Shown here: positions 2,836 through 28,956 of the stretch, piece after piece
Layout of the letters: every line of letters starts with the position of its first letter
How positions within the stretch are numbered: position 1 is the first letter of the stretch
From: a virus
DNA length: 30,559 nt
Virus record (IMG/VR): IMGVR_UViG_3300020451_000996
Location: 1 to 30,559 of that record
Direction: 5' to 3' (one strand)
The notes under the pieces: model-generated
Told to the model about the DNA's origin: nothing
Database searches by the model: none
The model's input: the letters and a program-made list of their open reading frames with translations, nothing else
Position numbers and translations under genes: made by a program

Positions 2836-3721
2836 ATTCAATTAAATCTACAACTTTTGCAACACCAATAGCATCATCTACATTAGTCTTTGGTCTTTGA
2901 AGTGCAGAATATCCTTGATTACGGTATGCAATACAATCGAAGAAATGTTTAAGTTCACATGATAAGGGACTTGGTCCTTCAAATGAAAATGTTTCGTTGT
3001 GTAGATCTTTGTTCAATTTGCCATCAATAATTTTATGGTTAGTTTTAATAAGTGTTTCTTTGTCGGAATCCCAAACAAGTGTGCCTTGTGTGCCAATTAC
3101 TGTGACAAGTCTTCTTCTTGTAGGTGAATACCAACTTACATCGCATTCTGCATGGATTCCATTGACAATGCCTTTGAATCTAACACGATCAGGTACATTA
3201 TTGTTAGTATAATTATTGCTTTCAACATGATTCACATTTATTATACCGTCACCTAAATAGTTTAATAAACTAATATCATGTACTGCAAGACTACTGACTG
3301 GCGTAATTTTTGTTTGATATATACCCCAGTTTGTTCTTTCGGACTTAATGCTAATTACTTTTCCAATATCTCCATTAGTAATAAACTTTTTCATAAGTTG
3401 ACCATGCATATGATGAATGAATATATGACCCACCATCAGTACATTATCTCCCTCTAATCTTTTAAGAGCCTCACATTGATCCTGTGTTTGAGCCATTGGC
3501 TTTTCAACGTACACATCACGATTGCGGAATAAAAAATATTTTGCTTGATCAAAATGTTGATCTGCTGGTGTTGCCAAAATTACAGGCCATGGTTGTGATG
3601 CTTGTTCTATGGTTGTGCCTTGTTTAGTGTCTATCACAGTTACTTCCTTGCCAAGACCTTTTAGTTCTTCCAATACTTTAGAACCCCAGTAACCAGCACC
3701 AACTAGATATACGTTATCCAT
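2819..3721 (-). CDS. Gfo/Idh/MocA-family NAD(P)-dependent oxidoreductase
   Basis: A 300-residue oxidoreductase with an N-terminal Rossmann fold: LVGAGYWG (6-13) is the dinucleotide loop and D31 ends the second strand, suggesting NAD preference. VEKPMA (72-77) is the family's EKP motif, and VHDISLLNYLG (147-157) holds the likely catalytic H148/D149 pair. Members oxidise or reduce nucleotide sugars; paired with a DegT aminotransferase they can make 3-amino sugars (the WlbA/WbpB with WbpE type). Here the upstream neighbour on the same strand is such an aminotransferase, overlapping by 8 bases, with AAAGGA five bases before the ATG. At about 300 residues it is slightly shorter than many members (330-350). 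The substrate is inferred from context only. Confidence 0.88.
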   Translation of the reverse strand: MDNVYLVGAGYWGSKVLEELKGLGKEVTVIDTKQGTTIEQASQPWPVILATPADQHFDQAKYFLFRNRDVYVEKPMAQTQDQCEALKRLEGDNVLMVGHIFIHHMHGQLMKKFITNGDIGKVISIKSERTNWGIYQTKITPVSSLAVHDISLLNYLGDGIINVNHVESNNYTNNNVPDRVRFKGIVNGIHAECDVSWYSPTRRRLVTVIGTQGTLVWDSDKETLIKTNHKIIDGKLNKDLHNETFSFEGPSPLSCELKHFFDCIAYRNQGYSALQRPKTNVDDAIGVAKVVDLIESKLVY

Positions 3722-4811
3722 AAAATTCCTTTATCTTGTTAATTACTAGTTCTTGGTCCTGAAGTGTATGATAGCAGGGCAGACTTAGAACATTTTTTGT
3801 AACACTTTCTGTCCGTGGTAATGATTCTAAACAATAATGTCCGTATGCTTCAGTCATATGTATTCCTAATGGCCATGATACCCGTGTTTGAATGCCATTA
3901 TTTTCTAAATAAACTTGCAAATCGTCACGTGTATTGTCCGGACAACCTATTGCATATACATAATAGGTATGATATGAATGCATTCTTTTTTTAGGAGTTT
4001 GAACAACACCGTATAATTCTTCATCATATATATGACACAATGCACGTTTAGAATCTATCCATTCGTCAAGTTTTTTAAGTTTTGCATCGCACACTATGGC
4101 ATTGATATTTTGTATTCTAGCATTGTAACCTGGCTCATTAAATTCTCCTCTAGTGCCATCTCGTCCATGCACACGCAATGATCTAATACTGTCACACACT
4201 TCATGAAATCCACTTACTGCTCCTGCATCTCCAAAAGATCCTAAGTTTTTTTGGACATTAAAACTAAAACAAGTTATATCTGCTAGATTGCCAACTTTAT
4301 TATTTTTGTAAGTAGAACCAAATGCATGAGCACCATCTTCTATCAGACACAGGTTATTTTTTTCTGCTATTTTTCTTAATTTATCTGTATCTGGTGTTTG
4401 CCCATACAACGACACATAACATATTGCTTTGGTTTTCTCAGTAATGGCTTCTTCAATTTTTGTCACGTCTATGTGAAAATATTCATCTACATCAACAAAT
4501 ACTGGAGTCCCACCTGCTTGAACAATGGCTTCAATTCCAGCACCAAAAGTTAAAGACGGTGTAATAACTTCATCACCTGGATCAAGTCCTAATAGTGTGT
4601 ATGTTAGTAACAATGCAGATGTGCCAGAATTTACAGTGGCAACATCAGGTGCACCGGTATATCTAACCAAACTAGATTCAAAATTAGTGTTTATATCTCC
4701 ACCCAAATAATTTGAATCTTTAATTAGATTTGCAATACCTAGATCGATTTCTTCTTTACATTCTTGATATTGTGAGTGTGGATCCCAGTATGGTACTTTA
4801 AATGACTTCAT
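3714..4811 (-). CDS. DegT/DnrJ/EryC1/StrS-family PLP-dependent sugar aminotransferase (second copy)
   Basis: A 365-residue PLP aminotransferase. Motifs are NSGTSALLLTY for phosphate binding, PGDEVITPSLTFGA, the Asp in IEDGAHAFGS (D159) and the lysine in FSFNVQKNLG (K188, counted from the chosen start). I chose the ATG at 4811 because AAAAGG sits about five bases upstream and the protein then begins MKSFKVPYWDP, the usual start of the family. An in-frame ATG at 4844 would add 11 residues and a longer overlap without a clear ribosome site. It overlaps the epimerase upstream by 14 bases and the oxidoreductase downstream by 8, so the three are tightly coupled. It is clearly diverged from the + strand aminotransferase, so the two probably act on different sugars or steps. 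Confidence 0.9.
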   Translation of the reverse strand: MKSFKVPYWDPHSQYQECKEEIDLGIANLIKDSNYLGGDINTNFESSLVRYTGAPDVATVNSGTSALLLTYTLLGLDPGDEVITPSLTFGAGIEAIVQAGGTPVFVDVDEYFHIDVTKIEEAITEKTKAICYVSLYGQTPDTDKLRKIAEKNNLCLIEDGAHAFGSTYKNNKVGNLADITCFSFNVQKNLGSFGDAGAVSGFHEVCDSIRSLRVHGRDGTRGEFNEPGYNARIQNINAIVCDAKLKKLDEWIDSKRALCHIYDEELYGVVQTPKKRMHSYHTYYVYAIGCPDNTRDDLQVYLENNGIQTRVSWPLGIHMTEAYGHYCLESLPRTESVTKNVLSLPCYHTLQDQELVINKIKEFYG

Positions 4812-5628
4812 CAATGCCTTTTCTAAAATCATATTTTGATTCATAGTCTAATAATAATCCTGCTCTATTTGTAGATAATGTCCCACGTTTTGGATACTTT
4901 GCGTCATGATCTTCCACTACGACATTACCTTTGCCTATTTTTTTTACAATGTAATCTGCAACTTTTTTAAGTTTTACTGCTTCACCGTGTGTAATATTGA
5001 AAGTTTCATTCTTAGAATTTCTTTTGTTGATACATCTTATAATACCATCTACAATATCATCAACGTAGGTGAAATCTAATTGACTGTTTCTCCCTTTTAC
5101 TGTAAGATACTGTCCTTTTTTTGCGGCTTTGATCCATAAAGAAATAACTCTGTCTGGTTTATCATTTTTGCCATATACGGCACTGGGTCTTATTATTGTA
5201 TAATTTTTATGTAATAATTTTACAATGCCTTCACCTGCTAATTTTAATTGTCCATACAAATCTATAGGTTTGCAATAATCACTCTCTGTAACAATATCTT
5301 TATCTTGTGGCCAGTCTCCGTACACCATGCTAGAACTTAAAAAAATAAAATGACTTTTATTAAATTGTGTAACAACATTCACTAAACCTTGTGTCATTGT
5401 TTTTACTGCCTCAATTGGCTTTTTATTTACTGCCCTAGAGTTGGCTTCAGCGGCCATATGTATAACACAGTCAAAAGTGTGTGCTTTGTCATATACCTTT
5501 TTCCAAGTTTTTATGTCGTTAATATCAGTGCCGTTGACTATATCAACAACATGAACTTCATGTTCTTTCAAATGTTCTTGAAGATGGGTGCCGATGAACC
5601 CGGCACCCCCTGTGATTAATATCTTCAT
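4798..5628 (-). CDS. NAD-dependent nucleotide-sugar epimerase/dehydratase (extended SDR)
   Basis: A 276-residue extended short-chain dehydrogenase/reductase. It shows the NAD-binding TGGAGFIG (6-13), VVDI at the end of the second strand, HMAAEANS (57-64), the serine strand LSSSMVYG (97-104), and the catalytic pair YGQLK (Y125, K129), followed by RPSAVYG. Relatives epimerise, dehydrate or reduce UDP-, GDP- or dTDP-sugars. It heads the epimerase-aminotransferase-oxidoreductase trio and overlaps the aminotransferase, so it likely supplies or matures the same nucleotide sugar. The product could decorate a virion protein or a host surface glycan; the sequence does not decide. It is somewhat short for the family (usually 300-330 residues). 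Confidence 0.88.
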   Translation of the reverse strand: MKILITGGAGFIGTHLQEHLKEHEVHVVDIVNGTDINDIKTWKKVYDKAHTFDCVIHMAAEANSRAVNKKPIEAVKTMTQGLVNVVTQFNKSHFIFLSSSMVYGDWPQDKDIVTESDYCKPIDLYGQLKLAGEGIVKLLHKNYTIIRPSAVYGKNDKPDRVISLWIKAAKKGQYLTVKGRNSQLDFTYVDDIVDGIIRCINKRNSKNETFNITHGEAVKLKKVADYIVKKIGKGNVVVEDHDAKYPKRGTLSTNRAGLLLDYESKYDFRKGIDEVI

Positions 5629-15699: not shown

Positions 15700-15727
15700 A
15701 TTATAAACTCTTTTTCCTGTTTGTCAA
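15700..15727 (-). promoter_or_regulatory. Sigma70-type promoter with -10 box adjacent to ATG
   Basis: TTGACA (15722-15727, overlapping the queE stop codon) and TATAAT (15700-15705) with a 16-bp spacer. Six bases then precede the ATG at 15693, so initiation about 7 bases after the -10 box would begin on the start codon itself. It drives the 123-aa gene, the exonuclease, two unknowns and glutaredoxin. Confidence 0.82.
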
Positions 15728-16620
15728 GTACCAATTGCATTTCCAAAAAGATATACATGAACTCTTGCCGCTACATTGTAGCCACGTTGGAATGCCTTTT
15801 TAGCCACTTCACCTGCAGTCATACTTTGCTCTTCTTCTCTTGCTCCTACTGGCATGATCCACACAGGCCAATCAACACCTACATCTCTAAATTGTTTAAC
15901 AACAAAGTCAAGTTCTTCCCATTCTCTGTCCCTATGACCAACCACAAATTTTAATTGTCCTAAGTCTCTTGTTTCCTTGTATTCTGCCACTGTCTCTGGT
16001 TTGATTGCTTTTGCCGCCTTCTCACCTGCTACAGACCAAAGTTTTGGACTAACTGAAAAGAATACTTCTTGTTCCATATTTGCTAAGAATTCTTTGGTTG
16101 TATCTTTCAATTTTTGTGTGCCATTTGTTTCAAATGTAATTGAACTTGGAGTGTTTTCACGTTCTTGCAAGGATTTCATAATACCAACAATGGCATCCTG
16201 TGTCATCAACATCAATGGCTCTCCGCCAGTAAAACAAAGATGTTGCGTCTGACCCGACACAGGATGTCTAAACAATCCATCAGGATTGGAGTCGTTGCGG
16301 AGAATATCTACAATTTTGTCTGCTAATACTTCTGGTGTTTCTTGTCCCATTAAGTGTTTGAACTTTTTTGCCCATGTATATGAAGAATCACAACCATGTT
16401 TCCATACTGGTAAATCTTCAACCCTGTTTACAGACATAGGGTCAAAGTCTTCATATGGTAATTCATAAGTTTCGGGATTAGTTGGATCTTTTTGTCCAAA
16501 CCCATTACATTGTAAGTTACACAGAAAAAATCTGATCCATGCAGTCGGCACACCTGTATAGTGTCCTTCACCTTGGATAGAATAAAAGATCTCGGAATAG
16601 TAATACTTCTTGTCAGACAT
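15724..16620 (-). CDS. queE: 7-carboxy-7-deazaguanine synthase (QueE), radical SAM
   Basis: 298 residues from the ATG at 16620. QueE converts carboxytetrahydropterin to 7-carboxy-7-deazaguanine with SAM and a 4Fe-4S cluster. Seen: YYSEIFYSIQGEGHYTGVPTAWIRFFLCN in pieces (Y7 to N35), the QGEG substrate loop (16-19), cysteines C34, C38 and C77 as the likely cluster ligands, CDSSYTW after the third, and the SAM-binding CFTGGEP (129-135). The third cysteine is displaced by a 38-residue insertion, unlike the compact CX3CX2C. A TTG start at 16662 was rejected because it would overlap the upstream gene and the promoter. It has its own promoter and probably a leaderless mRNA. Works with FolE and a QueD-like protein encoded nearby. 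Confidence 0.88.
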   Translation of the reverse strand: MSDKKYYYSEIFYSIQGEGHYTGVPTAWIRFFLCNLQCNGFGQKDPTNPETYELPYEDFDPMSVNRVEDLPVWKHGCDSSYTWAKKFKHLMGQETPEVLADKIVDILRNDSNPDGLFRHPVSGQTQHLCFTGGEPLMLMTQDAIVGIMKSLQERENTPSSITFETNGTQKLKDTTKEFLANMEQEVFFSVSPKLWSVAGEKAAKAIKPETVAEYKETRDLGQLKFVVGHRDREWEELDFVVKQFRDVGVDWPVWIMPVGAREEEQSMTAGEVAKKAFQRGYNVAARVHVYLFGNAIGT

Positions 16621-16627
16621 ATTGTAT

Positions 16628-16655
16628 ATTATAGTATTTAATTTGTGTTTGTCAA
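16628..16655 (-). promoter_or_regulatory. Sigma70-type promoter for queE, leaderless geometry
   Basis: TTGACA (16650-16655) and TATAAT (16628-16633) with a 16-bp spacer; seven bases separate the -10 box from the queE ATG. No ribosome site fits in that space. The -35 box lies in the 3' end of the upstream gene. Confidence 0.82.
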
Positions 16656-17294
16656 CGTGCAATTTGTAATGTTGTATATATTAGAAAGGACATCCTGCTC
16701 AGTCATTGCATTGTCCTTCCAACCGGGTATAATGGTTGGATATAGCGTCATATCTGCAAAATTTGACATGGTATTCCAGTCACTGGTGCAAAGGTCTTCC
16801 GCATATCTTTTCCAAAAACTTATCAGTCTTTCTTCGTCTTTTGAATCCTCTCCTAGATGTCTAATTGTAATATCAATAACGGCATCATCTGGTAATAATT
16901 TTGTGTGATGGGTGTCTGCTTGATTCTGCATTATAAATCTATCTTTGTATCTACAATTTTCAATCTTCTTTTGAATATGGCCCACTTGACACCAAACATC
17001 TTTTGGTATTAGTATTTGAATAATAATAGCATCTGGAACTTGTTCCCTTATTTCTTTAGGTGTTTTATGCGTTGCTGTCACGCAGTATTTTTCTACATCT
17101 ATGGCATGGGGTTCATCAATCAAGATTCTTCCAGTTTCAGGTATTATAGTTGTGCTGAGTGTATTACAATTCGGATGTTCTGATATCAATGATGCAAGTT
17201 TTTCACCACCTCCGCCTGGCATATGGCATACAAAAATCCGTTTTTTATGATTAGTATTTTCTAGTTCCCATCCACAATCATTTAAATCGGCCAT
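16638..17294 (-). CDS. Unknown protein with Gly-rich P-loop-like N-terminus
   Basis: A 218-residue protein I do not recognise. After the start, KRIFVCHMPGGGGEKLASLISEHP (about 19-42 in all) has a hydrophobic strand, a glycine-rich loop and a helix, like nucleotide-binding or sulfotransferase PAPS loops, but it lacks the classic G-K-S/T. A second strand, AIIIQILIPKDVWCQVGH, resembles the later strand of a P-loop fold, and a C-terminal helix-rich part follows. It lies between the cupin gene and queE at the end of the gp45-led unit. A sulfotransferase-like or kinase-like fold is possible, with low confidence. Confidence 0.7.
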   Translation of the reverse strand: MADLNDCGWELENTNHKKRIFVCHMPGGGGEKLASLISEHPNCNTLSTTIIPETGRILIDEPHAIDVEKYCVTATHKTPKEIREQVPDAIIIQILIPKDVWCQVGHIQKKIENCRYKDRFIMQNQADTHHTKLLPDDAVIDITIRHLGEDSKDEERLISFWKRYAEDLCTSDWNTMSNFADMTLYPTIIPGWKDNAMTEQDVLSNIYNITNCTLTNTN

Positions 17295-17297
17295 GGA

Positions 17298-17651
17298 TCA
17301 TTTTACTTTGGTTCCAACTGTTCTGCGTACTATATCATCATGATTGAACTCTGCCCAATACAATTCAAATGCAACACCGTCTTCAACACCTTCAAACTGG
17401 TGTATCTTACCAGGTTTGACCTGTGTGAAATCACCTGGCAATAATATTGTTTCATCAACTAGTCCTTGATCTTCTTGCCATACTCTCACAAGCATTTTGC
17501 CAGACTCTACGTAGAATCCGTTCCATTTATACCGATGTTCATGTTCTGAACATTTGAATCCTTTTTTGTATTCTATTCTATGAAACTCAAGAACTCCATT
17601 AGCATGAATTAATTCTGTTTGTCCCCAAATTTTACCTGCTTTCATTGTCAT
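17298..17651 (-). CDS. Small single-domain cupin
   Basis: A 117-residue cupin. Motif 1 is visible as CSEHEHRYKWNGFYVESG (H37, H39 region with a downstream acidic residue) and motif 2 as LLPGDFTQVKPGKIHQFEG, giving the usual 2-His/Glu/His metal site. Small cupins of this type include sugar-phosphate isomerases and epimerases, dioxygenases and metal-binding sensors; nothing here fixes the reaction. AAGGAG lies five bases before the ATG at 17651, favouring it over the in-frame ATG at 17645. It overlaps the upstream phosphoribosyltransferase gene by 20 bases and may act on a product of the same cluster. Confidence 0.82.
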   Translation of the reverse strand: MTMKAGKIWGQTELIHANGVLEFHRIEYKKGFKCSEHEHRYKWNGFYVESGKMLVRVWQEDQGLVDETILLPGDFTQVKPGKIHQFEGVEDGVAFELYWAEFNHDDIVRRTVGTKVK

Positions 17652-18132
17652 CTTTTCTCCTTATTTGATCCATGTGCCATATCTCCCATGGGTACACAAT
17701 ATACGGATCAGTGCTCCCCTCTGTTTTACTGTTTATTGTTGTATTAATTTCTGCCCAGTAATCTGGTTGGAAATTGGCACCAGTGTTATAATATAATACT
17801 GCATACTTGACGTCAATATTTTCTTCTGCATCACAGTTGGCCTTTATACCTGCAAGTGTGAAACCTTCACCGCAATCATCATCTATAACCAAATACTTGC
17901 CTGCAGGAATACCAGTGTCCCAACTTTCATGATCTATCACACTTGATGCAATTGGTATGCATGGCACGTCAAAATAATGACTCAACATCACTGCAATTTG
18001 TAATCCACCTCTGTTTACTCCAACAATGGCATCTGGTTCATAGTTGTCTAGTTTCATTTTAGACACAATAGTATCCAACATAGATGATATGTCTTTTTGT
18101 GTAATATATAATTTATTTGGTGTACTATTCAT
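17632..18132 (-). CDS. Phosphoribosyltransferase, downstream paralogue
   Basis: 166 residues of the type I phosphoribosyltransferase fold. AIVGVNRGGLQIAVMLSHYF (35-54) is the early strand-loop-helix and YLVIDDDCGEGFTLAG (80-95) is the PRPP-binding loop (D-D-x-x-x-x-G-x-T). Such enzymes attach PRPP to a purine or pyrimidine base. The protein is closely related to the gene immediately upstream, the first 60 residues being nearly identical. This copy has DDDCGEG where the other has DDICDEG, plus a longer, more basic C-terminus (RRKDDNESR). The substrate is unknown; a xanthine/hypoxanthine-type enzyme is plausible beside guaC. Confidence 0.84.
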   Translation of the reverse strand: MNSTPNKLYITQKDISSMLDTIVSKMKLDNYEPDAIVGVNRGGLQIAVMLSHYFDVPCIPIASSVIDHESWDTGIPAGKYLVIDDDCGEGFTLAGIKANCDAEENIDVKYAVLYYNTGANFQPDYWAEINTTINSKTEGSTDPYIVYPWEIWHMDQIRRKDDNESR

Positions 18133-18148
18133 ATACTTTATTATGTGC

Positions 18149-18598
18149 TTAGTCTATGTGCCATTCTTCCCATGGATAAACAATCCAACACGGATCTTTA
18201 CTCTTATCTATCTCTACTGCCCAGTAGTCTGGAAGAAAATTGGCAGGCCTGTTATAATGTAAGACTGCATATTTTACTTCGATATCTTCTTCATCATCAT
18301 AATCACCTTTCAATCCAGCCAATGTCCAACCTTCATCACAGATGTCATCTATAACAAGATATTTGCCTGGAGGAACAGTAGTGTCCCAACTTTGATGATC
18401 GCGTAGACTTGCTTTGATAGGAATACAAGGCACATCAAAATAATGGCTCAACATAACTGCTATTTGCAAACCACCTCTATTGAGGCCAACAATAGCATTA
18501 GGTTCATAATTATCAACTTTCATTTGTGTAATGATCTTGTTTAACATTGACTCAATGTCTTTTTGGGTAAAATATATTTTATTTGGTGTACTGTTCAT
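18149..18598 (-). CDS. Phosphoribosyltransferase, upstream paralogue
   Basis: 149 residues with the same fold as its downstream neighbour. AIVGLNRGGLQIAVMLSHYF (35-54) is followed by the PRPP loop YLVIDDICDEGWTLAG (80-95), and the C-terminal hood is shared (NFLPDYWA, IVYPWEEWHID). The PRPP loop here matches the textbook acidic pattern better than the downstream copy. The start region, including an AATAAAGTAT stretch before the ATG, is also nearly identical to the other copy, so the duplication includes the translation start. It overlaps the end of guaC by 20 bases. A purine-salvage role, supplying or consuming guanine-type bases, is inferred from the guaC neighbour. Confidence 0.84.
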   Translation of the reverse strand: MNSTPNKIYFTQKDIESMLNKIITQMKVDNYEPNAIVGLNRGGLQIAVMLSHYFDVPCIPIKASLRDHQSWDTTVPPGKYLVIDDICDEGWTLAGLKGDYDDEEDIEVKYAVLHYNRPANFLPDYWAVEIDKSKDPCWIVYPWEEWHID

Positions 18599-19628
18599 AT
18601 ACTTTATTTTGTGCGTTATGGGTTTTTACAAATGTTGCACACTTAGGCATATCTTTTAAACGTCTTGCTCCTATGTAAGTTGCTGACGATCTTACTCCGC
18701 CCAGTATGTCCTCCACTGTCTCTTTTACAGGCCCTCGATATGGTAATGATATTAATCTACCTTCGTTGCCTCGGTATCCGTCTTTTCTTTTTCCATGTAC
18801 TTCCCTTGCTCTGTCTGAACTCATCCCGTAAAATTCTATATTGCCATCAACTATCTCTTGCTCTGATTCATCATGGCCTGCTAACATTCCTCCGATCATA
18901 ACCATATGTGCACCACCGCCTAATGCTTTTGCTATATCTCCTGGATAAACACATCCACCATCTGCCATGATATGTCCGTCAACTCCATTGGCGGCATCTG
19001 AACATTCAACAATAGCGGAAAATTGAGGTATGCCTACTCCAGCCATTGTTCTTGTTGTACATACCGATCCAGGACCTATTCCTATTTTTACTACATCTGC
19101 ACCATTAATTATTAGTTCTTCAGTCATTTCAGGTGATACAACATTTCCAGCAATTATTATTTTATCTGGATATTCATCTCTTATACGTTTAACAAAATCT
19201 ACAAAATTTTGATGATATGCGTTTGCTACATCTATGGTAATAAATTTTACATCAGGAAAACTTGTTAATACTTCTTGCATTGTTTTATAATCTGGAGCGT
19301 CTGGATCCCACATTATATTTGTTCCTGTACACACAGACACACTTTGTAATCGTACACCTGTACCAACTGCTTTACGCCATGTGTCTATGTTTGTTGACTT
19401 TGTTATTACAGTCATCATTTTATAATCTTGTAACACCTTAGCCATTGAAAATGTTCCTACGCCATCCATATTGGACGCAAATATAGGACAAAATTCTAGT
19501 TGTTTGCCACTGTTAATAAAATTAAAAGTCCTAGTCATTTTAACATCTGCCCTTGATGTAAGAGTAGATCGTTTAGGTTGCAACAAAACATCCTCGTAGT
19601 TTAATTTTATTTCTTGTTTTATTCTCAT
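18579..19628 (-). CDS. guaC: GMP reductase
   Basis: 349 residues of the IMPDH/GMP reductase family without CBS domains. It has LNYEDVLLQPKRSTLTSRAD (9-28), the nucleotide loop GIGPGSVCTTRTMAGVGIPQ (184-202 region) with catalytic C190, HIMADGGCVYPGDIAKAL, MIGGMLAG, then EFYGMSS, YRGNEGRLISLPYRGPV and DILGGVRSSATYIGA, which follow the GuaC rather than the GuaB pattern. GMP reductase converts GMP to IMP with NADPH, letting a phage rebalance purine pools from degraded host nucleic acid. The start overlaps the folE stop as ATGA, so the two guanine-nucleotide enzymes are translationally coupled. Confidence 0.9.
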   Translation of the reverse strand: MRIKQEIKLNYEDVLLQPKRSTLTSRADVKMTRTFNFINSGKQLEFCPIFASNMDGVGTFSMAKVLQDYKMMTVITKSTNIDTWRKAVGTGVRLQSVSVCTGTNIMWDPDAPDYKTMQEVLTSFPDVKFITIDVANAYHQNFVDFVKRIRDEYPDKIIIAGNVVSPEMTEELIINGADVVKIGIGPGSVCTTRTMAGVGIPQFSAIVECSDAANGVDGHIMADGGCVYPGDIAKALGGGAHMVMIGGMLAGHDESEQEIVDGNIEFYGMSSDRAREVHGKRKDGYRGNEGRLISLPYRGPVKETVEDILGGVRSSATYIGARRLKDMPKCATFVKTHNAQNKVYEQYTK

Positions 19629-20311
19629 CTAGGAGCAAATTCTTGTTGCAATTTAATATTGTCCATGAACTCTTTCTTGGTTGCTGGATCATCTTTGAAT
19701 GCACCTTCTAGCACAGTGGTCTGTGTCAAACTTGAATGTGCCATGATACCTCTGTTCTCACAACAACCATGTGTTGCTTGAATGTAAACACCAACGTGTT
19801 GAGATTCAGTAGACTTTTTTATTTCTTTTGCAATTACCATAGCAAGTTCTTCTTGTAGTGTGCCACGTCTTGCACACCATTGGGCAATCCTTGTGTATTT
19901 GGATAAGCCTATTAGTTTTTTATGTGCAATTATGCCAATGTATGCCACACCTGCTACTGGTTGGTGATGATGTGAACACATACTTTTAAGTTCTGATCTT
20001 ACTACCAACATTCCTTTATATGCTTCTAATGAATCATTTGGAAATGCAGTTGCTTTAGGACGTGGATCATATCGGCCACTCATTATTTCATTCACATACA
20101 TTTTTGCAAGACGTCTTCCTGTGTCTGCTGAATTAGGATCATTGTCAGTATCAATCACTAGTGATTCTAATACTGAATGAAACTTTACTTGAAGTTCGTC
20201 TATTAGTTGTTCTTTTTCGCCAGGTTCAATATGTTCTGAAATATTGTCACCTGCCCAATATCTCGCACCTGCATCTGCAAGTCTTTTTCTTATTATATCT
20301 GATACACTCAT
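19625..20311 (-). CDS. folE: GTP cyclohydrolase I (FolE)
   Basis: 228 residues, normal length for FolE. It opens the guanine ring of GTP to make dihydroneopterin triphosphate, first step of folate and of 7-deazaguanine synthesis. The zinc and active-site residues are present: SMCSHHHQPVAG (C112, H115; the usual form is CEHH), FolE strand KLIGLSKYTRI (132-142), RRGTLQEELA (148-157) and HGCCENRGIMA (H181, C183). Its distance from QueD-like, DpdA-like and QueE genes suggests use for DNA modification rather than folate. CGGAGA sits upstream of the ATG. Coupled to guaC downstream. Confidence 0.93.
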   Translation of the reverse strand: MSVSDIIRKRLADAGARYWAGDNISEHIEPGEKEQLIDELQVKFHSVLESLVIDTDNDPNSADTGRRLAKMYVNEIMSGRYDPRPKATAFPNDSLEAYKGMLVVRSELKSMCSHHHQPVAGVAYIGIIAHKKLIGLSKYTRIAQWCARRGTLQEELAMVIAKEIKKSTESQHVGVYIQATHGCCENRGIMAHSSLTQTTVLEGAFKDDPATKKEFMDNIKLQQEFAPR

Positions 20312-20344
20312 TGTATTCTCCGATGTTGAGGCAGTGGATTGCCG

Positions 20345-21394
20345 TTATGTGTTAATTGTAGCATATAAATTCGTTGCAGTAAAGAAATTTTTCTGTAAAC
20401 TTTTTGCCTGTTTATGAACGTGTGGCACTAGTTTTGAATGATTCTCCATAAAGTATTTTATTTTGTTAATAATTTTTTCTTTGTGTTGATTATATGCATT
20501 AAAGTCGGTAGTCCATTCAGATGGATATTTGAATTCATCCATATACATTTCACTATAACTTAATCTGTCTGGCACCATTGGAATTGAATCAACCAATGCA
20601 CCTTCATAACAAGAAATACCAAGTGTCTCTTGCAAGTTTGCACTGAACACAATCTTAGATTCGCCTAGTATATTGTAGTATTCATTTTTTGTAAGTTGTT
20701 TTGTTTGGCATACTACCCATTCATATTCTGGTAAATGATTTGCCAAGTCCTCAAAAATGTCCAGTTGTTTTTCTGGGGCCAATCTGTGCGGAAACACAAT
20801 CATTTCTTTTTTATCCATCCCTTTGTAATTAGACAATAAACTGTCCATGTATCCCATGGGCCATCCTGTTCTTACAATTTTGCCAGGTTCATTTCTTAAG
20901 TACAAATTTTTAGTAAACATATCTATATGAAAGTCTGTTGCAAAGTAATTGTGATCAATAGCATGAAACAAAGCAGTTTCAAAACTGTATGACCATTTTT
21001 TGTCTGGTATCAGTCTACCTAAAAAGTCTTGTGGATCATATGATCCGGCGTGCCATAGTGCGTGTATTTTGCAATCAACCTGTAACAGTTGTCTCATATA
21101 TTGCAGTTGTATAATACTTGGATTCCATGCGTCAGTGTACACGAAATGATCTCCTGCTTTAACTTTGTTGTCAGCAAACAGTTTAGCAACATCTATGGAT
21201 TGTTGACTTTTGTAAACATTGGTTCCTGCAAAATTTAAGAAAGCACCTGGTGTTGTAGTCTGTGGTACATTTCCTCCTGACACGGTTATAACTTTATCAT
21301 TTGTTAATCTTGATAGTTCTTGTGGAATAAATTTTTTCCATTGTGCAGTATATCTACTTTCTACTGGTTCAAGATCTATAATGTAAATGGTCAT
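20345..21394 (-). CDS. GT-B fold glycosyltransferase (GT4-like)
   Basis: 349 residues resembling retaining GT-B glycosyltransferases. The C-terminal donor-binding half is the clearest part: MIVFPHRLAPEKQLDIFEDL (P-H-R-x-x-x-E-K-x, about 198-218), YEWVVCQTK, YYNILGESKIVFSANLQETLGISCYEGAL (with the E-x-x-G-x-x-x-x-E-A motif). The N-terminal half begins with IYIIDLEPV and has ALWHAGSYDP and a predicted acceptor region. Its place between folE and the queD-like gene, downstream of dpdA in one unit, raises the idea that it glycosylates modified DNA bases, as T4 glucosyltransferases do, but glycan or protein acceptors are equally possible. Confidence 0.8.
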   Translation of the reverse strand: MTIYIIDLEPVESRYTAQWKKFIPQELSRLTNDKVITVSGGNVPQTTTPGAFLNFAGTNVYKSQQSIDVAKLFADNKVKAGDHFVYTDAWNPSIIQLQYMRQLLQVDCKIHALWHAGSYDPQDFLGRLIPDKKWSYSFETALFHAIDHNYFATDFHIDMFTKNLYLRNEPGKIVRTGWPMGYMDSLLSNYKGMDKKEMIVFPHRLAPEKQLDIFEDLANHLPEYEWVVCQTKQLTKNEYYNILGESKIVFSANLQETLGISCYEGALVDSIPMVPDRLSYSEMYMDEFKYPSEWTTDFNAYNQHKEKIINKIKYFMENHSKLVPHVHKQAKSLQKNFFTATNLYATINT

Positions 21395-21603
21395 TTTTTA
21401 ATTTTCTTTTTCTTTGCAAGTAATTTTTTATCTACTTTTCCTGTTTCTTTAAACACTTGTAGTACTTCCCAAGCAGTTCCTTTTTTGTATAATCCGCCTA
21501 CGTCATTAAACATATTGTATTGATATGTAAAATCATACAGTTCTTTCAAGTCATCGTGAATTTGATTTATGTCGCTTGGTATTGCGTATGGATCTCTACT
21601 CAT
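21391..21603 (-). CDS. Hypothetical protein, 70 aa, lysine-rich tail
   Basis: A 70-residue protein: an aromatic-rich helical part (INQIHDDLKELYDFTYQYNMF), then GGLYKKGTAWEVLQVFKETG, and a strongly basic end (KKLLAKKKKIKK). No family recognised. It overlaps the QueD-like gene by 8 bases and the glycosyltransferase gene by ATGA. The basic tail could contact nucleic acid; the location between two modification-cluster genes makes an accessory role conceivable. Confidence 0.72.
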   Translation of the reverse strand: MSRDPYAIPSDINQIHDDLKELYDFTYQYNMFNDVGGLYKKGTAWEVLQVFKETGKVDKKLLAKKKKIKK

Positions 21604-22000
21604 TTTCCTCTATTCCTTCCCAATTCTCATAGGTTTGAAAGCATCCGTTCTCTCCATCTTCAGATACTTCTATCCATATAGCACGTTTAGGATATTTTGT
21701 TTTGATTTGTTCTGCTAGATCATCTGCCATCATTTCACATGATTTGTAATCTAACTGAAGAGTTTCTTCTGCATACAGTTTTTCTAACCATCTTTTGAAC
21801 TGTATAAATTCAATATCTCTGTCGTCATGGAATACTTCAATCCATACTTTGAAATGAAATATATGTCTGTGTGGATATCCTAAAAAAGACACATCATATT
21901 CATCTCCTGTTGCTAGTGTTGGATCATCTAGTGCCGCAGGAAATTTGTGTATTCCTTCTTTTCTAAATGTTACCCATATCATTTTTGTTGGTAATGTCAT
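21596..22000 (-). CDS. QueD/6-pyruvoyl-tetrahydropterin-synthase-like protein (divergent)
   Basis: 134 residues from the ATG at 22000, which overlaps the upstream stop as ATGA and has AAAGGA nine bases before it. The layout follows QueD: IHKFPAA (H18, compare F-x-A-A-H), GYPHRHIFHFKVWIEV (H44, H46; compare H-G-H-x-Y-x-V), IEFIQFKRWLEKLY (compare V-x-D-F-x-x-L-K), SCEMMADDLAEQIK (E89; compare P-T-x-E-N-x-A) and AIWIEVSEDGENGC (compare V-x-V-x-E). QueD makes carboxytetrahydropterin, the substrate of QueE, from the FolE product. The identity is by pattern, since catalytic residues are shifted, but a folE-queE-dpdA context supports it. Confidence 0.6.
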   Translation of the reverse strand: MTLPTKMIWVTFRKEGIHKFPAALDDPTLATGDEYDVSFLGYPHRHIFHFKVWIEVFHDDRDIEFIQFKRWLEKLYAEETLQLDYKSCEMMADDLAEQIKTKYPKRAIWIEVSEDGENGCFQTYENWEGIEENE

Positions 22001-22521
22001 ATGATTGCGTCCTTTCCATATTGTTCCCATTCTGTTTTTGTTTCGTCTGTAGTAAGATCTTTTATTTTGTGAACATAAATTGCATCATTAGTGGTATCAA
22101 AATCTACATCATCTATTTTTATACAAGTGTTTACATTCCAATTCATGTCTGGTACAGGTACACTGATCAACGGAATCAATTTGTTATTATGCATAGTACC
22201 TTTGTGTTGTGTAATCAATAGTGAATAAGTTTTTGGATCAATATCTAGTGTTACCCAATATCCTTTTGAAAGTAGTTCATCGACCACGTTCATTAATGCT
22301 TGAATATGATCTGTATCAATATTTTTAAAACTGTGATTTGCACCCAAGTAGATATGTTTACATGGATAATGACTGTCTAGTGTTTTGCCAACTATTGTAC
22401 TGGCTGACTGCATACCAACCACAAACAAAGTTTGCATATTGTGAGCAGGAGTTTTTTCTACTTCAATACCTGTAAAGAATATTGCAGTATCATTCATGCC
22501 AGATTCATATGGTCGTTCCAT
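21997..22521 (-). CDS. Conserved hypothetical protein, 174 aa, in the deazaguanine cluster
   Basis: 174 residues from the ATG at 22521, which overlaps the stop of the DUF2061 gene as TAATG and has AAAGGGA five bases before it; a farther ATG at 22569 was rejected. It opens MERPYESGMNDTAIFFTGIEVEKTPAHNM and has strands TLFVVGMQS, HIYLGANHSF, YWVTLDIDP and KLIPLISVPVP, so it is probably an alpha/beta fold. No motif that I recognise marks a catalytic site. Its tight coupling to the QueD-like gene (ATGA) argues for a role in the same pathway. Confidence 0.78.
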   Translation of the reverse strand: MERPYESGMNDTAIFFTGIEVEKTPAHNMQTLFVVGMQSASTIVGKTLDSHYPCKHIYLGANHSFKNIDTDHIQALMNVVDELLSKGYWVTLDIDPKTYSLLITQHKGTMHNNKLIPLISVPVPDMNWNVNTCIKIDDVDFDTTNDAIYVHKIKDLTTDETKTEWEQYGKDAII

Positions 22522-22757
22522 TATATTCCCTTTGCTTTTTTCCATGCAGAATGCAATACATAAAACCATAACCCGTTGATAGAAGGTTCAATCAGTGCCA
22601 CAGCACCTGCCTCCCATAAACTTGCTCCTGTCATGGCACTCACAACAATCATTGCAATGAATATGTGTCCAGTTGTGTATATTAATGCCAAAGTCAAACT
22701 TGAACTTTTTATAAGTTGCTTGAATGCTCCTTGTATTCCTTGTGTAAATTCAGTCAT
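22521..22757 (-). CDS. DUF2061-like small membrane protein
   Basis: A 78-residue protein with two hydrophobic segments: LTLALIYTTGHIFIAMIVVSAM (about 21-42) and a second around AGAVALIEPSINGLWFYVLHSAW (50-72). The pattern G-A-V-A-L-I-E-P-x-I-N-x-x-x-F-Y-x-x-H-x-x-W matches DUF2061 predicted membrane proteins. Topology is probably a helical hairpin in the inner membrane. Function of the family is unknown. Its start overlaps the dpdA stop by one base. Why a membrane protein sits in a DNA-modification cluster is unclear. Confidence 0.75.
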   Translation of the reverse strand: MTEFTQGIQGAFKQLIKSSSLTLALIYTTGHIFIAMIVVSAMTGASLWEAGAVALIEPSINGLWFYVLHSAWKKAKGI

Positions 22758-24220
22758 TATACTTCCTCAAATAAATTGTTAAACATTGTTCCAGCATTTA
22801 CTGTTTTTTTGCCTACTGCACCTCTTGTTCCTATGATGCTTTGCCATAGTTTATTATATTCTTCTATTATCATAAGTGACTCATCTTTATTATCTGTTGC
22901 AAATATTGCCTCTACTACATCTTTAAAATACACTGAATCAAACCTTTCGTCAACTAACATACCAGGTATTATGCCTTTGTCATACTGTTCATTGGCTGTT
23001 TGTACTGCATCAATATGACTCCAAACATTATGACCCATTTGTAATGCATAAGAAAATGAATCCCAACTGGTTTTACCTTCTTTACCAATCTTGTTTAAAT
23101 CACCTGGTGCATAAACACACACATCTTTTACCAACATCTTGTCAGATAATGGACTATCTGTAAATGTACTAAACACGCCATCTGCCACAACGGCATCTGA
23201 AAACTTTCTATTATCTGTGGCATACTTTTTGTCATCTACACTTGGAACCATTCTGTACACCCATTTGGTCCTGTCCGCAGTTTCTGTTGTAATGTAAAGT
23301 TGGCCATTTGCAGTTGCAAGAAATGGTGAAGCACAATCAAAACTAATTGTAAAGTTTTCATTGTGATATTTTCTTACTGCTCTTTGTACATCTGTCAATA
23401 ATGTTGCCCATTCTAATTTGGATGTACCTAAGAAGTGCATCCAATCATGTTTGCCTTTTTCTAATAATCCATCATGTCTTATGTGAACTAATCTTTTCAG
23501 TAACAAATGAACATCACACATATTTTGCCCACCCATCGACCATCCTCTAAAATGTGTTTCTGGATATACTTTTGGATCACTGTAATCTTTCATTCTTGCA
23601 TACCAGTCATCTGCTTCTTGGTGATTTTCTCCTTGTAATACATTTAAAAATTTACAAGCACCTGTTGAATGTTTCATAAAGTATTCATTATTGATTATAG
23701 TTGCCTTGCAGGCATCTTCATAAGTCAATATTCCTACTTTGTTTGCTACATCAACATCTCTAACCACCCATGCTGGAATATCTAGAACCATGCCATAGTC
23801 CATTAAGCCGTCCATCCATTTCAACACAAGGTCTCTCTTCTTTTGTGCTTTTGGACAGTTAGGATCTTTCCAGTCACCTTCCCATCTGCCTTTACCTATT
23901 TGGAATCCGCCTGAGTCGCCTACTAACAAACTAGATCCGTCTCTTGGTCTCTGTCTGATCCAGTCTTCTCTTGGCACATCTTTTGTTAGATCTAAGTCTG
24001 CATGACCTGCCGAATATAATGCGTATTTGTAATAAAAACTGCCGGCTTCTGGTTCAAGGAAATTTAATTCTTCAACTCCATTTGTAAATGCAGTTGGTAT
24101 TCTTGTTGATGGTATATAGTTGGGATCGGATCGTTGTTTTCCTATATAAGTTGCATAGAATGAACTAATGGCAGGTAAGAAAACTGCATAATCTTTTTGT
24201 CTGGACGTTAAATCCTTCAT
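22757..24220 (-). CDS. dpdA: DpdA-like DNA guanine transglycosylase (TGT superfamily)
   Basis: 487 residues related to tRNA-guanine transglycosylases, most like the DpdA enzymes that insert 7-deazaguanines into DNA. Seen: LLVGDSGGFQIGKG (98-111) with the base-recognising aspartate D102; MVLDIPAW (144-151); KFLNVLQGENHQEAD (190-204), the glycine-containing substrate loop; GWSMGGQN (226-233); and ISFDCASPFLATANGQLYI (292-310) with the nucleophile D295, compare F-D-C-V-x-P-T-R-x-x-R-N-G. The CxCxxC zinc site of tRNA-type enzymes is not seen; only one cysteine (C368) lies in that part. It follows the sliding clamp gene, and folE, queE and a queD-like gene are nearby, so it should act on phage DNA. 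Confidence 0.87.
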   Translation of the reverse strand: MKDLTSRQKDYAVFLPAISSFYATYIGKQRSDPNYIPSTRIPTAFTNGVEELNFLEPEAGSFYYKYALYSAGHADLDLTKDVPREDWIRQRPRDGSSLLVGDSGGFQIGKGRWEGDWKDPNCPKAQKKRDLVLKWMDGLMDYGMVLDIPAWVVRDVDVANKVGILTYEDACKATIINNEYFMKHSTGACKFLNVLQGENHQEADDWYARMKDYSDPKVYPETHFRGWSMGGQNMCDVHLLLKRLVHIRHDGLLEKGKHDWMHFLGTSKLEWATLLTDVQRAVRKYHNENFTISFDCASPFLATANGQLYITTETADRTKWVYRMVPSVDDKKYATDNRKFSDAVVADGVFSTFTDSPLSDKMLVKDVCVYAPGDLNKIGKEGKTSWDSFSYALQMGHNVWSHIDAVQTANEQYDKGIIPGMLVDERFDSVYFKDVVEAIFATDNKDESLMIIEEYNKLWQSIIGTRGAVGKKTVNAGTMFNNLFEEV

Positions 24221-24224
24221 AGGC

Positions 24225-24962
24225 TTACTTCTGTTGTGCTGGTAATATGTATTTGTAAGTTGCTAATCCTGAATCAACAGTAATCTGTAATGCACCATCA
24301 TTGGAAAATGCCATTGTTAGTTTACCTGATTCACCTAATTTTAAAATTTGTAATACCTGTGCTACTGGCCATGCCCAATTTTTATCAAGTGTGCCTTTTA
24401 CTCCTGGTTGGAAAACAAATTGACCTGCGTGTGTACTGTGGTCACCAAAAGTAAATTTAAGATCATCGCCATCAGTCTGTGCCACAAATGTTGTTTCTTC
24501 TGCATTCGCCGCCGCTTGGAAATTTAATTTTTGTGTTGCCGCCATGCTTGGTTCAAACTCAACATCCCAATTAACTCCTCTAAACTTCACAGTTTTAAGT
24601 TTTTCATTTATGATTTCTGAATTCATAAATCTGTAATCATTTTGAAAATCACCTGTTGCATTTTTAAACTGAATGCCTACTGGTACGTCTTCACCATTTC
24701 TGCTTTGTTTGTTTACTGTGATTGTTGCGTTGGATTTATATTCTGGACATTTCAAATGAATATCTAATTTGCCCAGTTGTGGCATACCAAAAGTACCTTC
24801 AAACTCTGCAACCGGAGATGTAATTTCTCCCTGCATAATTACTGAACGATCTTCTGCCATGCTGTCTAGTGTTGTTTCTTTATCAGAGCCTGTAATCTTT
24901 ACAATGTCAAGAAAGCCTAGTGAATGTGTGTGTTTTACTACATCTTGTAATATATCTTTCAT
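24225..24962 (-). CDS. 45: DNA polymerase sliding clamp (gp45-like)
   Basis: 245 residues, close to T4 gp45 (228). It has the opening FLDIVKITGSDKETTLDSMAEDRS in part (18-40), then EFEGTFGMPQLGKLDIHLKCPEYK (53-76), a beta-rich body and the tail ALQITVDSGLATYKYILPAQQ (about 223-243), all typical of the trimeric clamp. It tethers gp43 to DNA and in T4 also activates late transcription with gp33 and gp55. It has its own promoter and leads the unit that continues with dpdA, so clamp and DNA-modification genes share a transcript. The clamp loader genes 44 and 62 are not in the window. Confidence 0.85.
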   Translation of the reverse strand: MKDILQDVVKHTHSLGFLDIVKITGSDKETTLDSMAEDRSVIMQGEITSPVAEFEGTFGMPQLGKLDIHLKCPEYKSNATITVNKQSRNGEDVPVGIQFKNATGDFQNDYRFMNSEIINEKLKTVKFRGVNWDVEFEPSMAATQKLNFQAAANAEETTFVAQTDGDDLKFTFGDHSTHAGQFVFQPGVKGTLDKNWAWPVAQVLQILKLGESGKLTMAFSNDGALQITVDSGLATYKYILPAQQK

Positions 24963-25901: not shown

Positions 25902-28555
25902 TAAAATTCAAACAATGCATTGAATGTATTATTTTCCTGTGTAGCAATTAAATTCCAATTAAGTACACCAATTAAGTTGTCTAGTTTAGCATTAATTATC
26001 GACTCTTCCATGGCATCATGATCAAATGGCAATTCTTTAAACCATTCAGGCACTCTCAGTTGATCAACAGGATATGCCACACTGGTATATTGCAATGGAT
26101 TTGATTTTAATTTACATACTACCACTTTAGATCCATCTACTAAAGGTTTTGAATGTTTATCGGAATACATTTTTAACAGTCTATTCCAGTTCATACTGGC
26201 TCTTACATGACCAGGCATATTTGCTCTGCCTTGTCTTTCTTCTTTCCTTACATATTCTGTAAGATTATTACATCTTTTTGGTGATCCTTTTTCCCAGCCT
26301 GGTCTTTGCTTGAACTCTTTCCTAAAGTCCATAATAAATTCGGATACTTCTTCTTCATTAGATCCTGTCAGTACTTTTAATAATACATCACTCAAAAAGT
26401 TTTGTATGAATACTGGAGTGTCTGACCTTTTAAGATCCAGACCCATTGCTTTTACTTTGCCTTCCGTTTCTGTATCAGTCCGTTTGCCTTCAAGATCATA
26501 AATTAATATAGCATATCTTTTTTTAGTAATGAATATGCCTTTTGTTGCTATTGCTTCTCTACCTGCTCTAATAATATCACCTTTTTTCCTTGGTGTATGG
26601 AATGCCTTGTGTGCAAAGTCTGGAAAACTTGTATTCACTTCATCACCTATTCTGTCATATAAGGATATTACACTATCTTTTGTCCAAGGCAGTTTGCCGC
26701 TTTTAATATCCTCTTCTAGACTTTTGTAGGCACTAAAATACACAGAATCTGTATCACCATATATGACTGATTGACCTTTATGATCATACACACCGGTAAT
26801 AATCTCATTTACTTTTGCTCCCATGTGTTTTGTGATAACTCGCCCAGTCAGTGTTGTGCTTTGACCTAGTCTTGAATCAAAAAATCTGCACCCTGGATTC
26901 AACAATGCACCATACAGTGAATTCAAATTAATCTTTTTTACTAGTTGTCTTTTATCCCAAAACTCTGTTTCAATTTGATTGCCGGCAGTTATAGCATCTC
27001 GCATTTTGCCTTGCATTTCTTTTCTTTCTGCGTACCATCTTTCTAGCAGTCCTGGAATCACGCCTTCTATTTCAAATGTAAAGATAGTACCGTTGGCACT
27101 TAACCCCCATTTTGAATTTGAATTGTATATCATTTCGTGAACTTCAGCGGCACTCATTACTTGTTCTTCGCCATTCTCCCAATCCACCGTGATAGTTTTT
27201 GCTCTGTCCTTCTCCATTACTGCTTGATATTCAAGTGTTCCAAATTCTCCCTCCCAGGCACCTGCGAAACTCATTTTTTTACGCATACGATCTGCTATCA
27301 TGGCATCTGTTTCTTCTGGTCTAAGTTGTCCGACGATTGTTTCTGGTGCCATGTTCAATGCTCTAATCACAGAAGGATACAGAGAATTCAAATCAATTGA
27401 CCCAATCCAGTCATGCATACCTTTCTTTGGAGTAGCAACATAGGCACCTGCCGCTGGCTCAGACCCAGGCTCACGTCTGACTCTGTCTGGCACTACCATA
27501 CCACGTCTGTGTGTTTCATTTAGTATTGCTTGTTCAGTCACTGCCACTGCACCCATTGTTGTTTGAAGTAAAACTGTGTTTGCATGAGCCAGTTCACTTG
27601 CAAGATCGATAAATTTTAGTTTCTTGTCAATTTTATCAAGCAGAGCAGTATCTTGTCTGTTGTATTCTATAAATCTTTCAAAGTCTCTGTTGTACAGTTC
27701 ATCTAATGATCCTTCATATTCAGTTTTTCTTTCACCAACTTCCATTTCAGCAATATAATCTAGTGCGTATGAATGCCTTTCTTCATACATATACTTTCTA
27801 TACAGTTGCATATAGTCCAAATGCACACGGCCTATTATGTCAAATGTAACTTCTTCTTTGCCAAATCTTTCAAACTGTCTTTTGCGTGGAGCAATATTCC
27901 ACAGACACATTCTTTTTGTGTCTTGCTTACTGAGAACTTTTGCTATCCTGTTTACAATGTAAGGAATATCATAACCTTCACTGTTCCAACCTGATATTAT
28001 GTCTGCATCATCTAGCAAAGTTAAGAATGTGTCCAAAAGTTCTGCTTCATCTGTAAAGATAAAACAGTTGTCGAACTTTTTGCCAACTTCTTCAGCAAGT
28101 GCCTGTTGTCCTTTTGGAGCCAATGCCAATGTTATCAGTTGTTCAGTCCAGTTTAAGTATATTGATATTGCAGTTATTGGCATAAATGGATCTGCAGGAC
28201 TGGCATAACCACGTTCTGGATCAAAATCTACTTCAATATCTAAAAATAAACAGTTCATCTTAGGAGCATCTTTGCCTAAGTAGTTTTCTTCAAGACATCT
28301 AAAGATAGGATTTACATCACTTTCATATGTGCGTTTGCCTTTGTGCATAGAAAGTTCTCTTTTGAACTCTTTGCTTTGCTTTGTTGAAAAACGTGATACA
28401 GAATCACCATATATGCTTCTGTGTTTGCCTTTTGGATCATCATAATAGAACACATACCTTGCAGGGTAGTCAACAAACTTACGTTCGCCGTTGACTCTTT
28501 CTACAATGTTAATCTGATCACGTTCGCGATCAAAGTATGCGTCTATGTATGACAT
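25901..28555 (-). CDS. 43: Family B DNA polymerase (gp43-like)
   Basis: 884 residues (T4 gp43 is 898). The 3'-5' exonuclease domain shows FLDIEVDFD (Exo I, about 105), GWNSEGYDIPYI (Exo II) and YNRQDTALLD (Exo III). The polymerase domain shows DLNSLYPSVIR (motif A, about 387), KINLNSLYGALLN (motif B) and YGDTDSVYF (motif C, about 600). The C-terminus ends TFNALFEF, a plausible clamp-binding tail as in T4-like polymerases (L-x-F). It replicates the phage genome with the clamp encoded nearby. The start overlaps the speD stop as TAATG. Polymerases of this family accept modified bases in templates, which would be needed here. Confidence 0.97.
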   Translation of the reverse strand: MSYIDAYFDRERDQINIVERVNGERKFVDYPARYVFYYDDPKGKHRSIYGDSVSRFSTKQSKEFKRELSMHKGKRTYESDVNPIFRCLEENYLGKDAPKMNCLFLDIEVDFDPERGYASPADPFMPITAISIYLNWTEQLITLALAPKGQQALAEEVGKKFDNCFIFTDEAELLDTFLTLLDDADIISGWNSEGYDIPYIVNRIAKVLSKQDTKRMCLWNIAPRKRQFERFGKEEVTFDIIGRVHLDYMQLYRKYMYEERHSYALDYIAEMEVGERKTEYEGSLDELYNRDFERFIEYNRQDTALLDKIDKKLKFIDLASELAHANTVLLQTTMGAVAVTEQAILNETHRRGMVVPDRVRREPGSEPAAGAYVATPKKGMHDWIGSIDLNSLYPSVIRALNMAPETIVGQLRPEETDAMIADRMRKKMSFAGAWEGEFGTLEYQAVMEKDRAKTITVDWENGEEQVMSAAEVHEMIYNSNSKWGLSANGTIFTFEIEGVIPGLLERWYAERKEMQGKMRDAITAGNQIETEFWDKRQLVKKINLNSLYGALLNPGCRFFDSRLGQSTTLTGRVITKHMGAKVNEIITGVYDHKGQSVIYGDTDSVYFSAYKSLEEDIKSGKLPWTKDSVISLYDRIGDEVNTSFPDFAHKAFHTPRKKGDIIRAGREAIATKGIFITKKRYAILIYDLEGKRTDTETEGKVKAMGLDLKRSDTPVFIQNFLSDVLLKVLTGSNEEEVSEFIMDFRKEFKQRPGWEKGSPKRCNNLTEYVRKEERQGRANMPGHVRASMNWNRLLKMYSDKHSKPLVDGSKVVVCKLKSNPLQYTSVAYPVDQLRVPEWFKELPFDHDAMEESIINAKLDNLIGVLNWNLIATQENNTFNALFEF

Positions 28556-28956
28556 TAATAAATTTCTTTGAATCCGTTTGTTTCTTCTTTGATAGCATAT
28601 TCTCTGTCGAACTGTTTATATTCTACTTTCACAGGGTCAAAGTCGTCAAGTGCTTCAAACACTTTATTTTTATCCAGTGATGAACAGGTATATACGTCTA
28701 ATTGTATTAGTGCAGGATTAGATTCATCCCAAACGTGCATAGCAATATGACTTGTTTCGATTATTCCACAAATTGTAAGGCCTGCGTTGCCGGGTGTGTC
28801 CACATAACCACAAATTGGATTGTTTTGGATGTCTAGTTTTGCCATACCAATGGAATCAACAAGTTCATTCCACCATTCGACAGCAACATCACAATCACGT
28901 GGAGGTTTTTCGCACAAGGCTCTGATAATGATGTGTTTGTGTTGTGGTTTAATCAT
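28555..28956 (-). CDS. speD: S-adenosylmethionine decarboxylase (SpeD-like) proenzyme
   Basis: 133 residues, normal for bacterial-type SpeD, which decarboxylates SAM for spermidine synthesis using a pyruvoyl group made by self-cleavage. The core is GLTICGIIETSHIAMHVWDE (59-78 in all), with the serine to be converted to pyruvoyl S69 and H70, followed by IQLDVYTCSSLDKNKVFEAL (C91 as the likely proton donor). The residue before the serine is Thr (T68), where the family normally has Glu, so cleavage would be T-S. It lies between dsbA and the polymerase gene, overlapping both. speD is a known marine T4-like phage metabolic gene; polyamines bind packaged DNA. Confidence 0.85.
   Translation of the reverse strand: MIKPQHKHIIIRALCEKPPRDCDVAVEWWNELVDSIGMAKLDIQNNPICGYVDTPGNAGLTICGIIETSHIAMHVWDESNPALIQLDVYTCSSLDKNKVFEALDDFDPVKVEYKQFDREYAIKEETNGFKEIY

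Follow-up and report, generated by a model that had tools for sequence, protein, structure and literature searches.

Background

Which base does a virus place in its DNA when it encodes enzymes for making a 7-deazaguanine and no QueC? The question is raised by the IMG/VR record IMGVR_UViG_3300020451_000996, whose 30,559 bases, the whole record and a fragment of a larger virus, are called the window here. A run of genes on its minus strand, from 24962 down to 15724, encodes FolE, QueE, a protein with the QueD fold and an enzyme with the predicted fold of the tRNA-guanine transglycosylase (TGT) family. The initial annotation of the window had read these genes as a pathway to hypermodified DNA, with the carboxy form of the base as the simplest guess for what is carried, and had overlooked a glycosyltransferase, two phosphoribosyltransferases and a GMP reductase in the same run. 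In our view there is good support for a 7-deazaguanine pathway that leads up to a TGT-fold enzyme, and this part of the earlier reading stands, whereas the QueD role that it gave to one of the proteins lacks support and its plain carboxy product is weakened. The explanation that we favour, and to which we would give an even chance, is that this phage operon hypermodifies guanine in DNA through a QueC-free branch of the pathway, with insertion of the base by a DpdA-like enzyme and a sugar step carried out by the glycosyltransferase.

Results

The enzymes at the two ends of the pathway

FolE (GTP cyclohydrolase I, 19625..20311, minus strand, as are all genes of the run) and QueE (radical SAM 7-carboxy-7-deazaguanine synthase, 15724..16662) are both clear, as first claimed. 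The former has the GTP cyclohydrolase I domain (PF01227, 1.2e-39) and the latter matches PHROG2076 ("QueE-like", E 3.1e-55) and has the radical SAM cysteines; both score under the NCBIfam cut-offs. Across 60 sequences, C48, C52 and C91 of QueE and its TGGEP motif are at least 95% conserved. Between C52 and C91, the second and third of these cysteines, QueE has 38 residues.

The DpdA-like protein of 487 residues (22757..24220) has no significant match in Pfam, PHROG or NCBIfam, and Pfam TGT matched none of 39 related records. Its AlphaFold model (AF2; 38 sequences) has a pLDDT of 92 and a pTM of 0.90. Foldseek returned the TGT family in 49 of the 50 rows shown (rows 1-48 and 50); the nearest solved folds are mostly tRNA TGTs, and the DNA preQ0 insertase DpdA (7ui4) is among the matches. 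VIA aligned the model with a bacterial TGT at Z 19.5 (4.4 A, 304 residues). Two aspartates, D102 (DSGGF) and D295 (FDCASP), are at least 97% conserved across 147 sequences, and hhalign, in a pairwise match that is weak (E 0.0024), sets D295 against the FDCVMP motif in Tgt of E. coli. D102 is placed by its DSGG motif, and we take the numbering and the roles of the catalytic aspartates to be the usual ones. The initial annotation had made this protein a TGT-family enzyme with both aspartates and had named a structure search as what could refute it; that search led to the TGT family and not elsewhere. The assignment thus holds by the modelled fold and the conserved D102 and D295. The hidden Markov model of the family had no match to E. 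coli Tgt, to the DpdA of 9g or to the nt-1 open reading frames (ORFs) examined (L182), in which the DpdA2 gene was not pinned down, and searches of PDB sequences with the families gave nothing useful. Relatives were found by tblastn in 13 of 50,697 phage records, 11 of them from the PA5oct group and the other two being Phosso (Sinorhizobium) and Vibrio phage 2.275.O; the TGT-like proteins of ACP17, X1 and BUCT-ZZ01 belong to the X1 group and were missed by tblastn with the window protein.

A QueD-fold paralog and the absence of QueC

The protein of 144 residues (21596..22030; PHROG17812, E 3.8e-35) had been given the role of QueD. Its model has E. coli QueD (4ntk) as the closest entry by Foldseek, and by VIA the entries for PTPS and QueD reach Z 10-11, the same level as dihydroneopterin aldolases, which have the same fold. 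Like E. coli QueD it has the T-fold, and it appears to share the His and Glu positions: all 36 sequences compared keep H28, H54, H56 and E124, of which H54 and H56 fall on the HG[HY] motif, with H28 not superposed. Unlike E. coli QueD it lacks the catalytic Cys27, whose position is occupied by Leu50, and the Asp-His pair; the roles of these QueD residues are as we assume them. Because they are missing, we class the protein as a QueD-fold paralog and not as QueD. No canonical QueD was found in the window, and the joint synthesis of 7-carboxy-7-deazaguanine (CDG) by FolE, the QueD-like protein and QueE, as proposed at first, is not shown for the window's own set.

QueC, already reported as missing from the window, is indeed absent there and from nearly all relatives searched. 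In the 35 contigs longer than 50 kb among 160 loci, direct BLAST over the stretch examined found the paralog in 34, dpdA in 33 and the glycosyltransferase in 29. Two of the 35 have QueC matches, both partial and barely above the cut-off. Among 12 named phages, QueC is strong in Vibrio phage 2.275.O (172 bits), which has neither paralog nor glycosyltransferase; D479 has a partial match and X1 one under the cut-off, so that the 11 named phages with the paralog include one partial match over the cut-off and one below it. Menderavirus IME-SM1, which has no paralog, carries a QueC gene (41 bits) next to QueE and a TGT-like gene; at the equivalent place ACP17, a relative of IME-SM1 according to PMC9025141, carries a TGT-like gene, the glycosyltransferase, the paralog and QueE. 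No paralog was found in nt-1 and 9g either. The pattern is that relatives with an intact QueC lack the paralog, and those without QueC carry it. The simplest interpretation is that the paralog replaces QueC at CDG. Since the window's group moreover adds a glycosyltransferase, the guess of a plain carboxy end product is weakened, and the pattern points to a base that is processed further.

A separate PTPS-family protein is encoded in 16 of the 35 contigs (one of the 16 under the curated cut-off), in all six contigs over 150 kb and, at E 0.01, in each of the 12 named phages (above the cut-off in 11 of them). Its gene lies within the same cluster in ACP17, BUCT-ZZ01, phiST and RHph_I1_18, and in other relatives it can lie far away. 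In 17 of the 24 PTPS proteins read (two of the 17 look identical over the stretch compared), RQ...HGY replaces AH...HGH and two of the three zinc histidines are missing, so judging by these motifs the proteins likely lack the usual zinc site; they occur among loci L170-L181 and L198-L209. A QueD split in two, with the His triad on the paralog and the Cys on the variant PTPS protein, was considered and rejected as the main reading because a QueD that looks canonical accompanies the paralog in PA5oct, Bakedbeans and one contig (G013, L072). A 133-residue ORF of the window (28555-28956) was ruled out as QueD: it is S-adenosylmethionine decarboxylase-like, and it adjoins a DNA polymerase gene. The QueD-like gene is also present on seven contigs of bacterial and archaeal metagenome-assembled genomes (L218-L224), which are probably phage contigs binned with hosts.

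A glycosyltransferase related to QTMAN

The GT4-type glycosyltransferase (349 residues, 20345..21394) belongs to a family of which 27 members were compared with Pfam and PHROG: ten match Glycos_transf_1 (PF00534) and three match a glycosyltransferase of PHROG. We searched two sets of bacterial genomes, of 99 and 200, from the phyla of two metagenome-assembled genomes with the profile of the family. Of the 37 matches in these 299 genomes, 34 are QTMAN-type ORFs. In the smaller set (E 0.01), 19 of 21 matches bear QTMAN_N and account for every QTMAN_N ORF found in that set; the two odd matches gave 54 bits and no score against a QTMAN profile. In the larger set (E 0.001), 15 of 16 matched ORFs scored at least 275 bits against that profile, built from 18 ORFs and used here in place of a search with PF12038 itself, and one scored 43. 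The hhalign probability to QTMAN is 98.9, and H203, R204, K209, E256 and E264 (HR..K, EX7E) are kept in all 102 sequences compared. The enzyme thus resembles QTMAN in its C-terminal GT4 half, with the motifs HR..K, EX7E and P.RL.Y.E, and differs in being viral, in lying within a putative DNA-modification operon and in having no match to PF12038. Because this N-terminal domain is unmatched, its sequence makes it a relative of QTMAN rather than a member. The substrate that QTMAN itself mannosylates is queuosine, a 7-deazaguanine base of animal tRNA-Asp (PMC12518689).

The neighbourhood is conserved. The module is common among viral contigs: two scans found at least 598 relatives each and a third 384, and the best 80 of each were read. 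When the neighbours at 144 paralog loci were clustered, dpdA was present at 137 loci and a protein of 190 residues at 136, followed by the glycosyltransferase at 133, folE at 99 and queE at 57; direct BLAST with the window proteins gave dpdA in 136 and the glycosyltransferase in 120. Many loci are cut off. Where the sequence downstream of the paralog extends for 2.5 kb or more (105 loci), the glycosyltransferase follows the paralog in 93 by direct BLAST and in 104 by clustering, L142 having none. Conversely, among the best 80 of the at least 598 glycosyltransferase loci, the paralog is present in 79; where the upstream sequence reaches 1.5 kb or more, all 75 loci have the paralog, and where it reaches 5 kb or more, all 63 have dpdA. 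In the phage records tblastn gave 20 matches, four of them distant and partial; the 16 long ones (11 PA5oct-group records, Phosso, two records of ACP17, X1 and BUCT-ZZ01) all have the paralog, and the two genes thus occur together in five named lineages. In the Synechococcus phage BUCT-ZZ01 (L192, 3376-7530), two GT4-type glycosyltransferase genes flank the TGT-like and QueD-like genes. At some loci a divergent subtype of the glycosyltransferase, starting M[RK]KLFYMGLE, takes the place of the window's type (L063, L064, L065, L076, L082, L096, L108, L160 and others).

Discussion

What the sequences show is the gene content, the modelled folds, the conserved catalytic residues, the constant neighbourhood, the exchange of QueC for the paralog among relatives and the kinship to QTMAN; the reactions, the DNA target, the order of the steps and the sugar are inferred. 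We propose that CDG would be made by FolE and QueE together with a QueD whose gene lies beyond the fragment or in the host genome. The paralog would convert it in the stead of QueC, most simply by removing the carboxylate in the manner of DpdL, a likeness that we presume. The DpdA-like enzyme would then swap the product for guanine in DNA by means of Asp295 and Asp102, and the QTMAN-related enzyme may put a sugar on the inserted deazaguanine, as its kinship and neighbourhood suggest. The released guanine could be recycled by the phosphoribosyltransferases and the GMP reductase.

Several points weigh against this proposal. On the side of the chemistry, a decarboxylated base offers the sugar no obvious oxygen; this is a known tension, and the paralog would therefore do something else or the sugar would sit elsewhere. 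QTMAN, according to PMC12518689, requires a specific hydroxyl on its substrate, and the weak point is that CDG and 7-deazaguanine do not have it; the sugar may therefore go to another base, to the carboxylate or to a carbon. On the side of kinship, the match to QTMAN is restricted to the C-terminal half (residues 147-289), none of the 27 family members matches PF12038 (QTMAN_N) at E 0.1, NCBIfam gave weak hits only and no match naming a glycosyltransferase, and the DpdA-like profile found no match in the DpdA of 9g (hhalign, E 0.42). As for the distribution, D479 is an exception that combines the paralog with a partial match to QueC, in 11 of the 105 loci the glycosyltransferase is of the divergent subtype and was joined by clustering alone, and four distant homologs (24.5% identity, 62% coverage) occur in PhiXhv/Ep032 phages, of which PhiXhv-12 has no paralog. 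Finally, the counts are not independent, since the replication genes are common to most loci and no fewer than 11 of the 80 glycosyltransferase loci come from contigs that had entered the counts before.

A further such point, the paralog occurring without the glycosyltransferase in six of the 11 named phages that carry it (phiST is one such phage), means that the paralog has a role of its own, and leads to the strongest alternative. DpdL is said, in work from 2023 attributed to Cui, to be a CDG decarboxylase in a pathway with DpdA3 that leads to 7-deazaguanine in DNA (dDG). If the paralog were such a DpdL, the virus would carry sugar-free 7-deazaguanine and the glycosyltransferase would act elsewhere. 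The zinc-type histidines and the base-binding Glu that the paralog keeps fit this. Against it, the glycosyltransferase is nearly as constant as dpdA (104 of 105 loci with room, compared with 136 of 144), and QTMAN-type ORFs are the closest relatives that it has in cells. We regard this alternative as a real one, and as rather unlikely.

That CDG enters DNA unchanged (dCDG) would agree with the absence of QueC from the window and the mere partial matches in two of the 35 contigs. It seems improbable to us because the carboxy form leaves the QueD-fold paralog and the glycosyltransferase, both near-constant, idle. Equally improbable is a tRNA target, with the viral TGT and the QTMAN-like enzyme making a glycosylated Q-like tRNA. 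The nearest solved folds are indeed mostly tRNA TGTs and QTMAN is a tRNA enzyme; however, PMC7824862 already interprets the PA5oct set as one for deazaguanine synthesis and incorporation into DNA. Moreover, a DpdA (7ui4) is among the fold matches too, and a clamp-like gene and a DNA polymerase adjoin these genes. Most phage GT4 enzymes serve surface or virion glycans, sugar-nucleotide genes are present at window 1753-5628 and sugar-related-looking genes (by eye) near about 30 of the 144 loci. That this glycosyltransferase is a mere neighbour that makes such a glycan is nevertheless very improbable, since five named lineages pair it with the QueD paralog and its kinship is QTMAN-specific.

The proposal of a sugar on an inserted deazaguanine can be set beside the systems already described. 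Phage DpdA systems for 7-deazaguanine are known from 9g, nt-1 and CAjan (Hutinet 2019, PMC6884629). The window resembles them in FolE, QueE and the TGT-fold enzyme, and its relatives in the PTPS-family protein, and differs from them in lacking QueC and in having the QueD-fold paralog and the QTMAN-related glycosyltransferase. It is closer to the Pseudomonas jumbo phage PA5oct group, where the DpdA-like protein (34%), the glycosyltransferase (41%) and the QueD-like protein (61%) are likewise neighbours, with a phosphoribosyltransferase and QueE next. That group differs in having two PTPS-family genes elsewhere, of which the one read has canonical motifs, and the stretch of PA5oct that was examined yielded no 190-residue protein. 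For PA5oct, a deazaguanine synthesis and incorporation system and five momylating enzymes are reported in PMC7824862. We found no report of glycosylated deazaguanine DNA, and no mention of a glycosyltransferase linked to it, in the portions of the literature at hand, a comparison in which key papers are not included; earlier work may describe parts of the pathway.

Extending the proposal, we suggest, tentatively and with slightly less than even confidence, that many aquatic and several cultured phages have glycosylated 7-deazaguanine DNA, made without QueC by the paralog and the QTMAN-related enzyme, as a DNA counterpart of mannosyl-queuosine in tRNA. If true, glycosylation would join the chemistry of 7-deazaguanine DNA, a family of tRNA glycosyltransferases would be tied to viral DNA modification, and the cultured phages named here would be those where direct testing is possible.

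Other genes of the window

From 24962 downwards, the run consists of the clamp-like gene, the 487-residue TGT-like gene, small ORFs, the genes for the 190-residue protein, the QueD-fold paralog and the glycosyltransferase, then FolE, the GMP reductase, the two phosphoribosyltransferases, a cupin, a protein of 218 residues without assignment, and QueE. The clamp-like first gene (24225..24962) is present in 132 of the 144 QueD-like loci; it had been labelled gp45, and we could not confirm this label, PHROG12062 being of "unknown function". The conserved 190-residue protein (21997..22569) is functionally unassigned, with no match in Pfam or PHROG. The GMP reductase (GuaC, 18579..19628; NF003470, 450 bits against a cut-off of 397) is rare among relatives (16 of 144 loci). 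Phosphoribosyltransferase 2 (18149..18598; PF00156, 4.7e-9), possibly for guanine salvage, has family members near 72 of the 144 loci, and phosphoribosyltransferase 1 lies at 17632..18132 (PF00156, 3.6e-7). The sugar-nucleotide genes at 1753-5628 encode two DegT-type aminotransferases, a Gfo/Idh/MocA oxidoreductase and an NAD-dependent epimerase, and this set might be the source of the donor for the glycosyltransferase.

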